Below, piece after piece: positions 3,492-6,425 of a DNA stretch of 64,000 nucleotides. A model generated the notes under the pieces. The model saw only the letters and a program-made list of their open reading frames with translations, made no database searches and was not told the DNA's origin. The stretch's first letter is position 1. The number at the start of each line of letters is the position of its first letter. A program made the position numbers and the translations under genes. Source of the DNA: Pseudomonas sp. W4I3 (lineage in GTDB: Bacteria > Pseudomonadota > Gammaproteobacteria > Pseudomonadales > Pseudomonadaceae); contig NZ_JAUSXS010000001.1 in assembly GCF_030816195.1 (NCBI RefSeq), positions 2,999,501 to 3,063,500 of the forward strand. The letters are read 5' to 3'.

Positions 3492-4034
3492 TCACGCCTG
3501 TTCGTCGTCCCGCAACTGCCCACTCATCGCATCGCAACTGCGCGTCCAGTCGCTCATCCATTGCGGCATCGGTGGCGAAGTCTCATCCAGGCCCAGTGCT
3601 CGTACAAATTCCGCCGGGGGCAGGGTGCCCTTGGCGGAGCGAAACAGCCCGCGTATCACCACCACGCCGATAACCCGGCCATTGCTGACAAACCGGTGCT
3701 CCATCAGGCTCCACTTGTGGTCCCAGCCGAGCATGCGGGTGTGCACTTCGAATACTTCAAATAGCTTCAGTTCGCGGCGAAACTTGCCCCAGGTATCGCC
3801 CACGATCGGCACGGCTTTGTGGCGCAAGGCCACGCGAAACGCGCCCGTGCGCAGGACGAAATCCATGCGGGCCACGTCCGCCAGGGAAAAATACCGGCCA
3901 TTGGTGACATGCCGGTTGAGGTCCAGGTCCAGCGGCCACACGCGCATGCGCACCACCGTGGTGGCCAAGCCATGGGCCGGTGTGCGCCAGGGGCGACGCA
4001 ACAGCATACGTAACAGTCGAAACCATAAATTCAT
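3492..4034 (-). CDS. Thioesterase family protein (4HBT/hot-dog fold)
   Basis: 180 residues. The stretch DLDLNRHVTNGRYFSLADVAR near residues 36-56 is the hot-dog fold active-site region of 4-hydroxybenzoyl-CoA-thioesterase-like proteins, with Asp and Asn followed by His-x-x-Asn-Gly-Arg-Tyr. Length and C-terminus fit single-domain acyl-CoA thioesterases. It probably hydrolyses an acyl thioester; the substrate cannot be read from sequence. It is divergent from a GlxA-type regulator, which could control it. Confidence 0.75.
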   Translation of the reverse strand: MNLWFRLLRMLLRRPWRTPAHGLATTVVRMRVWPLDLDLNRHVTNGRYFSLADVARMDFVLRTGAFRVALRHKAVPIVGDTWGKFRRELKLFEVFEVHTRMLGWDHKWSLMEHRFVSNGRVIGVVVIRGLFRSAKGTLPPAEFVRALGLDETSPPMPQWMSDWTRSCDAMSGQLRDDEQA

Positions 4035-4142
4035 AGGGGTGCCACGCAGTTGATCGATGGCGGCACTGTACGGACGTGGAATCGGCTAAGGTAGGTGCGC
4101 AAATGACTTATTTCATGCGAAAAGCGCAAACAGGTTTCTTCA

Positions 4143-5102
4143 ATGCACATTACCTTGCTTCTGGCTGACCAATGCTCCGCGGCCAACGCCACCCTGGCCA
4201 TGGAAACGCTCAGCGCAGCCAACCTGTTCGCCGACAAGCCGCCTTTCGAAGTGGTGCTGGCTTCCCTGGACGGTCAGGCGGTGACGTCCTGGGGCGGGCA
4301 ACGCCTGCAGGTACAGTGTTCCCTGGCCCAGGTCGTGCGCACCGACCTGGTGCTGATCCCCGGTTTCCTGTTTACCTTGAAACAAGCCCTGCCGACGTTT
4401 GCCGCTTACGGGCCGTGGCTGCGCAAGCAACACGGGCAGGGCGCGGTGCTGGCCTCGATGTGCACGGCGGCCTTCTTGCTGGCCGAGTCGGGTCTGTTGC
4501 ACGGTGCGCGCGCCACCACCCATTGGGCATTTGCCGCGTTGTTCCGACGCCGCTATGCCCAGGTCAGTCTGGATGACGCACAGATTCTCTGCGAAGAAAA
4601 CCGCTTGATCACCTGCGGCGGCGCGACGGCGGCGATGGACCTGATGCTGCACCTGATCCGCCGTTTCGGCTCACCGGAGCTGGCGCATACCTGCAGCAAA
4701 TACTTGCTGATTGATAACGTGCGCACCGAGCAATCGGTGTATGCCCTGTGGTCGCTGCCCAAGAGTCACGGCGACGTCGAAATACTGCGGGTGCAGCATT
4801 GGCTGGAACAGCACTTCGCCCAGCCGCTGTTGATCGATGACGTGGCGCAGCGCTTCGGCTTTGGCGTGCGCAATTTCAAGCGCAGGTTCAAGGAAGCCAC
4901 CGGCTATACGCCCATCGGCTACCTGCAAACCCTGCGCCTGGAGCGGGCCAAGCAGATGCTTGAATCGACCCGCATGACCCTCGACAGCATCACCTACGCC
5001 GTCGGCTATGAAGACAGCAACTCGTTTCGGCGCCTGTTCCAACAACGCGTGGGCATATTGCCCGCGGCGTATCGAAAGCGATTTCTCGGGGCGCAGCCTT
5101 GA
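4143..5102 (+). CDS. GlxA-family AraC transcriptional regulator (DJ-1/PfpI + AraC HTH)
   Basis: 319 residues. Residues 1 to about 170 are a DJ-1/PfpI amidotransferase-like sensor domain with the nucleophile-elbow cysteine at Cys107 (SMCTAAFLL). Residues about 215-315 are an AraC double helix-turn-helix (FGFGVRNFKRRFKEATG, then ITYAVGYEDSNSFRRLF). Such proteins often respond to amino-acid or quaternary-amine metabolites, but the effector is unknown here. It is divergent from the thioesterase gene and convergent with the repeat-protein gene. Confidence 0.85.
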   Translation: MHITLLLADQCSAANATLAMETLSAANLFADKPPFEVVLASLDGQAVTSWGGQRLQVQCSLAQVVRTDLVLIPGFLFTLKQALPTFAAYGPWLRKQHGQGAVLASMCTAAFLLAESGLLHGARATTHWAFAALFRRRYAQVSLDDAQILCEENRLITCGGATAAMDLMLHLIRRFGSPELAHTCSKYLLIDNVRTEQSVYALWSLPKSHGDVEILRVQHWLEQHFAQPLLIDDVAQRFGFGVRNFKRRFKEATGYTPIGYLQTLRLERAKQMLESTRMTLDSITYAVGYEDSNSFRRLFQQRVGILPAAYRKRFLGAQP

Positions 5103-5121: not shown

Positions 5122-5149
5122 AAAAAAAACCGGCTGATCAGGCCGGTTT
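5122..5149 (-). terminator. Rho-independent terminator of the repeat-protein gene
   Basis: Read on the minus strand, the stem AACCGGC/GCCGGTT with a short loop is followed directly by a run of eight T, a strong intrinsic terminator 24 bp past the stop of the repeat-protein gene. On the plus strand the T-run is only three bases, so it serves the upstream AraC gene less well. Confidence 0.8.
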
Positions 5150-5173: not shown

Positions 5174-5560
5174 TTATACGTGGTTGCTCAGCAGACGATC
5201 CGAACCGCCTTCAGCCAGACCACGTTCCTGCAGGCGATCTGCACCGCCTTCGGCCAGGCCACGTTCCTGCAAGCGATCTGCACCGCCTTCAGCCAGGCCA
5301 CGTTCCTGCAAGCGATCTGCACCGCCTTCAGCCAGGCCACGTTCCTGCAAGCGATCTGCACCGCCTTCAGCCAGGCCACGTTCCTGCAGGCGATCTGCAC
5401 CGCCTTCAGCCAGGCCACGTTCCTGCAGACGGTCCGCACCGCCTTCGGCAATACGGGTTTCAATCAGGCGATCCGCGCCGCCTTCAGCGACTACCGGGTG
5501 AGCGAAAGCGTTTGCAGCAAGTACCGAGAAAGCGAGGCTAAGCAAGAGTTGGCGTTTCAT
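5174..5560 (-). CDS. Small secreted protein of eight 13-residue tandem repeats
   Basis: 128 residues, starting at the ATG that gives a clean signal peptide (MKRQLLLSLAFSVLAANAFA); the longer upstream open frame has no signal peptide. From residue 25 on, the whole mature protein is eight tandem 13-mers. One is AEGGADRLIETRI, six are identical copies of AEGGADRLQERGL, and the last is AEGGSDRLLSNHV. The DNA repeats (39 nt) are nearly identical, so copy number may vary between strains. Similar Pseudomonas proteins are, from memory, sometimes labelled 'phage infection protein', a name I would not rely on. Function unknown; an exported charged repeat protein or a peptide precursor is possible. Confidence 0.75.
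   Translation of the reverse strand: MKRQLLLSLAFSVLAANAFAHPVVAEGGADRLIETRIAEGGADRLQERGLAEGGADRLQERGLAEGGADRLQERGLAEGGADRLQERGLAEGGADRLQERGLAEGGADRLQERGLAEGGSDRLLSNHV
5177..5488 (-). repeat. 39-nt coding tandem repeat array (8 units)
   Basis: Eight in-frame 39-nt units make up the whole mature part of the secreted repeat protein. The central six encode identical peptides and differ by only a few bases. The units are contiguous, without spacers, which excludes a CRISPR array. Confidence 0.9.
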
Positions 5561-5702
5561 GAGAGTGTGCTCCGAGTGTTTTAGTTGGGTGCCGTTTGGC
5601 ATGGGTTTGATGTTACGCGCCGCATTTTTTAAGAGAACTTCATTGCGCTGATGGTGACTATCGATGCCAGCGATGATCCTGTGCGGACCCTCACTGCGAG
5701 CG

Positions 5703-6425
5703 TCATGGCATCTGCGGCAGGTCATTGGGGCGCAGGTCAAATACCAGCACCTCGGCGTCTTCGCCCTGGCTCAGGCGGATCTGGCGCTCGTCCCGCACCC
5801 GCACACCGTCGCCTTCCTGCAAACGCTGGCCATTGAGTTCGACGCTGCCACGCGCCACATGGACGTAGGCGTAGCGATCCGCCGGCAGGTCCAGTTGCGC
5901 GCTTTCGTCGGCGTTGAACAGCCCGGCATACACCCGCGCATCCTGGCGAACATTCAACGAACCGTCGGCACCGTCCGGCGAGATGATCAATTGCAGGCGC
6001 CCGCGTTTTTGCGCCTCGCTGAAGTGCTCCTGCTGATAGCGCGGCTTGGCCCCGGCTTCGTTGGGCACGATCCAGATCTGCAGGAAGTGCACGCCCAGAC
6101 GCTGGCTGTGGTTGAACTCGCTATGGGCCACGCCGCTGCCGGCGCTCATCAGTTGCACATCGCCGGGGCGGATCACCGAGCCGGTGCCCAGGGTGTCCTT
6201 GTGTTCCAGGGCGCCTTCGAGCACATAGGAGAAAATCTCCATGTCGCGGTGCGGGTGCTGGCCGAAGCCTTTGCCGGCGGCGACGCGGTCATCGTTGATC
6301 ACCAGCAGGTCGGAAAAACCCTGCTCCTTGGGGTTCCAGTAGTTGGCGAAGGAGAAGGTGTGGAATGACTTCAACCAACCGTGATTGGCGGCGCCGCGTT
6401 CGGAAGCTTTGCGAAGGGTCAGCAT
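5703..6425 (-). CDS. Pirin family protein (cupin; possible quercetin 2,3-dioxygenase)
   Basis: 240 residues with the N-terminal pirin signature (GQHPHRDMEIFSYVLEG and GSGVAHSEFN). These give the His/His/His/Glu metal site of the first cupin barrel; a second, more degenerate cupin half follows. Bacterial pirins of this length resemble E. coli YhhW, which can oxidise quercetin in vitro. It is divergent from a GlxA-type regulator. Confidence 0.87.
   Translation of the reverse strand: MLTLRKASERGAANHGWLKSFHTFSFANYWNPKEQGFSDLLVINDDRVAAGKGFGQHPHRDMEIFSYVLEGALEHKDTLGTGSVIRPGDVQLMSAGSGVAHSEFNHSQRLGVHFLQIWIVPNEAGAKPRYQQEHFSEAQKRGRLQLIISPDGADGSLNVRQDARVYAGLFNADESAQLDLPADRYAYVHVARGSVELNGQRLQEGDGVRVRDERQIRLSQGEDAEVLVFDLRPNDLPQMP

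Follow-up and report, generated by a model that had tools for sequence, protein, structure and literature searches.

A Pseudomonas family of predicted exported tandem-repeat proteins and the conserved element upstream of most of its genes

A predicted exported protein built of tandem repeats

What might a small protein do that, behind a signal peptide, consists almost wholly of copies of one short unit? Such a gene lies on the minus strand of the 64-kb stretch of Pseudomonas DNA analyzed here (the window; Table 1). An earlier sequence-only reading had placed it at the correct coordinates but had left out its strand, and had described a secreted protein made entirely of eight 13-residue repeats, nearly identical in their DNA. 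The eight units are borne out, with the first and last off consensus: the mature chain comprises HPVV, AEGGADRLIETRI, six exact copies of AEGGADRLQERGL, and AEGGSDRLLSNHV. Export is predicted from the N-terminus, which by eye resembles a Sec/SPase I signal peptide, with AFA preceding the cut. TRF reports the array with a period of 39 bp, 6.6 copies, a match of 94% and a score of 435, its two rows describing one and the same array, and finds no second tandem array in the window at a score of at least 50. The near-identity of the repeats at the DNA level holds, with units 2–7 varying at silent sites alone (pS 0.231, pN 0.000, 15 pairs).

Table 1. Features of the repeat locus, in window positions
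Feature	Position	Strand	Basis or detail
Terminator-like hairpin with T tail, 8 pairs	5127–5149	minus	scan
ORF of the 128-aa repeat protein	5174–5560	minus	ATG at 5560, stop at 5176–5174
Eight 39-bp / 13-aa units	5177–5488	minus	TRF and translation
Signal peptide MKRQLLLSLAFSVLAANAFA	5501–5560	minus	from sequence; kept in orthologs
Upstream element GTYGATNNTYACCAT(7)ATGAANTTYT(17)GTANCAT	5610–5665	minus	conservation; probable promoter / activator site
Pirin/quercetinase-like gene, upstream of the repeat gene	5703–6425	minus	Pfam PF02678, 118 bits

The mature chain contains two His residues and lacks Cys, Met, Phe, Tyr, and Trp. From the single sequence, AlphaFold2 produced a long helix with a mean pLDDT of 68.8, a pTM of 0.26, and a pLDDT above 80 in its middle; with 26 alignment rows, the pLDDT was 48.2 and the pTM 0.17, and neither model contained a strand. 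This lack of a confident fold, together with a charge–hydropathy plot that places the mature chain on the disordered side, favors a disordered chain. Because the single-sequence helix is predicted with a pLDDT above 80 mid-chain, the protein may also adopt a partner-bound, oligomeric or folded state. Hydrophilins are defined by more than 6% glycine and a mean hydrophilicity above 1; the repeat protein has 20.4% glycine, above the first threshold, and a GRAVY of -0.80, which falls short of the second. Like hydrophilins and LEA-type repeat protectants, the protein consists of glycine-rich, charged tandem repeats predicted to be disordered; unlike them, it has an exported form, a GRAVY that falls outside the hydrophilin range, and no Pfam match.

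The "strong terminator" of the sequence-only reading is retained as a hairpin with a T tail, but its strength is not established because the scan expects 0.7 such sites by chance. The pirin-like gene is a neighbor in most close relatives, although one close relative of the repeat protein (L064) has no pirin in the DNA examined; we regard it as a syntenic neighbor, not necessarily a functional partner. The pair is flanked by two DJ-1/AraC (GlxA-type) regulators. Six family loci read by eye differ overall in gene content and share no partner gene that recurs across family types, so the repeat gene probably acts from its own promoter. Individual settings do recur by eye: family genes of two types (L083, L094) have a neighbor that encodes a CxxCH-containing c-type cytochrome, a MocR-type regulator is common to L083 and L108, and in two species (L105, L118) family genes lie between AsmA-like and TetR-type genes, a setting that suggests an ancestral family locus.

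Spread of the family and evolution of its units

We delimited the family by a signal peptide followed by tandem units built around G[SA][DE]R, a description that the window protein fits. Protein matches were found in 190 of 199 Pseudomonas genomes, with up to 20 match rows per genome, where one gene can give several rows. An order-wide sample gave matches in 9 of 194 genomes: four belong to the same genus, the window's own among them, three carry repeat proteins in another genus of the same family, and in the remaining two no such protein was recognized (no unit in L044, an unrelated-looking ORF in L048). The window's own genome has one paralog at E<=0.001 (G000:C1:1310589-1310954). Neither Pfam families nor PDB sequences matched at E<=1, and the single match among plasmid records was to a Pseudomonas plasmid. 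Literature searches with unit-core strings, the PtrA N-terminal domain, and repeat or disorder terms returned nothing relevant, and we make no claim that the family is unpublished.

Unit length and type vary among relatives. In the other genus, one locus (L046:1462-2997, genome G319) holds two adjoining exported repeat genes with units of 18 residues (54 bp) and 22 residues (66 bp), of the AENGSSQTVDRLHKQLG and ADNGSERTIDRLHKQMG types, which have like ends; the first gene type is also found in L045 and L047. The P. aeruginosa VNTR ms172, which may or may not be this gene, likewise has a 54-bp unit. Its PAO1 allele is given as 12 repeats in PMC11506784. Within Pseudomonas, some MKRQ paralogs (L216, L217, L218, L222, L223, and L229, from G389-G391) mix two unit kinds, with a few AEGGSDRL-type units beside AADGSDRL[QK]GN[TE]V arrays.

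Selection on the unit is seen in the pirin-linked orthologs, of which there are 61 including the window's. Nine are the same sequence in two collections, leaving 52 distinct coding sequences; L096, cut at a contig end, was left out. E2, G4, and R7 occur in every one of the 306 inner units and L8 in 305 of them, while positions 9–13 are variable; in comparisons of orthologs, the core has a pN/pS of 0.064 and the tail one of 0.384. Because E2, G4, and R7 never vary, the sequences indicate that the core E..G..[DE]RL is under purifying selection at the protein level. The same conclusion can be drawn for a 24-unit relative in G156 that has another signal peptide and N-terminus and another C-terminus, and that has the 13-mer AEGGSDRLIERRV in common with its MKRQ paralogs. 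Silent sites in the units compared between them are close to saturation (pS 0.60, pN 0.003, 396 unit pairs), which points to protein-level selection on the common 13-mer and not to recent duplication. Units in G159 behave alike (pS 0.61, pN 0.000), and those in G084 show a pS of 0.61 and a pN of 0.040.

Two further readings were set aside. The G156 and G159 genes had hinted at a species-specific peptide "type", with tails matched between paralogs. We compared tails in eight genomes with MNTP- or MFNF-type genes, using 30 fetched loci and eight original ones rather than every match. Tails of different backbones disagree in five genomes (G389, G390, G391, G394, and G396), and three genomes (G392, G393, and G395) have close or shared tails, so matched tails are not the rule and the idea was dropped. 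Inter-locus gene conversion was rejected as the main cause of similar units, as only 8 of 46 arrays have their nearest counterpart in the same genome. Unit DNA identity is 0.868 within a genome vs 0.827 between genomes, and none of 2000 label shuffles reached this, although the shuffling ignores relatedness.

Repeat number was taken from length in the distinct sequences, with one genome per species. The lengths of all 52 orthologs follow 24+13n, where n ranges between 3 and 11 and is most often 8 (20 orthologs). The n=3 ortholog (L099) is close to the end of a contig and may reflect assembly collapse. In Pseudomonas haemolytica (L087), codon 2 of the ortholog, which spans about 3990-4260, is a stop, and the rest of the frame, with five units, is open; its count was taken from the repeats. 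Because of this stop, the gene is perhaps dispensable there. With pirin DNA identity as a clock (51 of the 52 genes; L021 has too little pirin), copy number is unequal in 2 of 6 pairs that are at least 97% identical, in 10 of 12 pairs at 95–97%, and in 41 of 57 pairs at 92–95%. These pair comparisons indicate that copy number shifts on the scale of species. The copy-number change proposed in the sequence-only reading is thus supported between species, where repeat number is not constant.

A conserved element upstream of family genes

Different family groups have in common an upstream block of about 68 nt that can be aligned gap-free. Compared between the window gene and five further members of the family, this block is 49–81% identical vs 23–37% further upstream; the group consensus of the block leaves out 42 upstream sequences, that of the window gene included. 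A 56-nt pattern drawn from family promoters, GTYGATNNTYACCATN7ATGAANTTYTN17GTANCAT, was searched with at most 3 mismatches. The window copy has 1 mismatch and lies 49 nt from the start codon. The own genome contains exactly two sites, before the window gene and before its paralog; a shorter pattern gave one extra site, with 3 mismatches, that is absent with the full pattern.

Eight multi-copy genomes hold 35 sites. Of 30 that were fetched, 29 precede a family ORF by 39–45 nt from the ATG and one runs off its contig, and four of the five unfetched sites lie 40–42 nt before family matches. The fifth belongs to a gene with an MKRQ signal (L160, G156:C3:394900-396000) encoding a TETDKLFSDAVAA-type 13-mer and ending in AEGGSDRLIERRVA. 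In this gene, nearly all units have switched to the TETDKLFSDAVAA type, with element, signal peptide, and 13-residue register kept.

Genus-wide, the element occurs in 167 of 199 genomes and the reversed-pattern control in 0 of 199. Of the nine genomes that lack a protein match, six contain it; of the 190 that have one, 29 do not. Given the origin of the pattern, matches at family promoters are partly circular; the independent part of the evidence is the reversed-pattern control together with 20 further sites, hand-picked and non-random, chosen so as to include weak matches and three of these six genomes. At 18 of these 20 sites, the element precedes a signal-peptide ORF with at least two family-type units, e.g. 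AQDGAERQLNTV or GDGFERTGG; one of the others (L249) precedes a 58-aa ORF holding no more than one degenerate unit, and the last (L260) a broken remnant. The element thereby located family-type genes that the protein search had missed in three genomes. Relatives of the MFNF, MNTP, and MKTQ types do not carry it. An ungapped upstream element of about 56 nt that, judged from genomic sequence, marks family genes is what is new here.

Its position and conservation underlie our reading of the element as a promoter. A scan upstream of the window gene found no sigma-70 hexamer pair, and RNAalifold found 0 pairs in the upstream block on 9 sequences, of which 7 count (L042 and L043 were on the wrong strand). 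GTANCAT could be a -10 region and the remainder an activator site.

Possible functions and their meaning

Given these features, we propose as most likely that the repeat protein is a regulated, exported, disordered, and multivalent binder or protectant of the envelope, with its own promoter element; we assign this reading a probability of roughly 40%. The protein would be made on demand from its dedicated, conserved promoter element and exported by Sec, and the mature chain would then remain periplasmic or surface-located. Each unit, with its acidic E/D residues, glycine-rich turn, and invariant Arg, would offer a weak binding site for envelope components or unfolded proteins. Action would be by valence and, because each unit would be one weak site, repeat number would tune its strength. 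The nearest functional analogy may be an inducible disordered chaperone or protectant of the envelope such as E. coli Asr. This protein is described in PMC10746267 as an exported, disordered periplasmic chaperone induced by stress, namely acid shock. The repeat protein and Asr have a signal peptide form and predicted disorder in common; Asr is acid-induced, and the two are likened by description, not by sequence.

Several other functions would also suit parts of this anatomy. The exported chain could be a precursor that is cut once per unit into 13-mer or shorter signal or effector peptides, as its head-to-tail copies behind a signal peptide, its constant register (24+13n in 52 of 52 orthologs), its conserved core with a variable tail, and a possible cleavage site by eye, [R/G]-[V/L] before most AEGG, would allow. 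We consider this unlikely: by eye, no protease, exporter, or receptor genes were recognized in six loci, tails disagree between backbones in five of the eight genomes compared, with like or similar tails in the other three, and some relatives have units of 14, 18, or 22 residues. A role on the surface or in the matrix, also as a functional amyloid or as a subunit of fibers, is improbable as well. Secreted low-complexity tandem repeats of variable copy number are typical of surface proteins, and the family fits that general picture; however, no anchor, sorting, or fiber-assembly genes were recognized by eye in the six loci or by Pfam among the three window neighbors scanned, and the chain has no predicted strand and lacks Phe, Tyr, Trp, and Cys. 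The sequence-only reading had also named a phage-interaction factor, a role, like that of a defense protein, to which we give next to no weight. Its sole support is the automatic product name "phage infection protein" used in P. fluorescens In5 and 2P24, a name that may denote this repeat family. Lactococcal Pip, also a "phage infection protein", is a large membrane protein, and the likeness is at most one of automatic product name: the repeat protein is small, of exported form, and, with 0 Pfam families at E<=1, without a Pip/YhgE domain. None of 50,697 phage records matched, PADLOC gave 0 families for the window protein at E<=1 (E 0.057 for the relative P0002), and the best PHROGs hit had an E of 0.12. 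Published expression lists contain proteins of this name: one from P. fluorescens is listed as 32.4-fold up with Rhizoctonia solani, in a list that also holds pirin, azoreductase, and glutathionyl-hydroquinone reductase genes (PMC5557065), and the one from 2P24 is given as one of 14 InvF-activated genes, with a Sec/SPI signal (PMC8490769).

A database match raises a further possibility, PtrA-like metal tolerance, in which the acidic units would serve as periplasmic ligands for copper or another cation. A role in copper tolerance and copper induction via CopRS characterize PtrA. According to PMC8872213, it is induced by copper and stores this metal in the periplasm. The P. aeruginosa protein (PA2808; NCBIfam NF041599) and the repeat protein are both small and exported, the NF041599 model and the repeat unit have an AEGG[SA][DE]R-type stretch in common, E2 and D/E6 occur in nearly every unit, and the whole protein scores 48.1 bits against a cut-off of 31. 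However, the model matches about 12 residues per repeat, its best stretch spanning positions 20-31 of 46 and so falling short of a single N-terminal domain; an N-terminal piece comprising the signal peptide, unit 1, and seven unit-2 residues scores 15 bits vs 31; and an NF041599 search of the genome omits the repeat gene at E<=0.1. Because of this 15-bit piece and the absence from the genome search, the score is best read as a sum of sub-threshold repeat matches. The mature chain, moreover, has no Cys or Met and two His, and its invariant R7 is not a usual metal ligand, so that we hold this function to be doubtful. The own genome separately encodes a 70-aa PtrA-like small exported protein (L040:1501-1713) with EGGSER right after its signal peptide; it has one motif and a non-repeat tail, and scores 21.5 bits, below the cut-off.

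The family as a whole could be viewed, tentatively and at somewhat worse than even odds, as a dedicated Pseudomonas regulon, possibly with its own transcription factor. Its recognizable targets would be disordered repeat proteins that are exported and mostly consist of 13-residue units, and its element would be more conserved than the protein: a tunable multivalent system of envelope protection. In this view, signal peptide, register, and promoter are retained as the repeats change in number and even in sequence. What appeared as an odd single ORF belongs to a near-universal, often multi-copy Pseudomonas family, for which a database match is partly misleading; its form is modest and its scale striking, and most of its members have a common control element. 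Through the conserved element, the family offers a direct route to its regulator and inducing signal, and because near-identical units occur naturally in numbers from 3 to 24, it also offers a test of how the activity of a disordered exported protein depends on repeat number.
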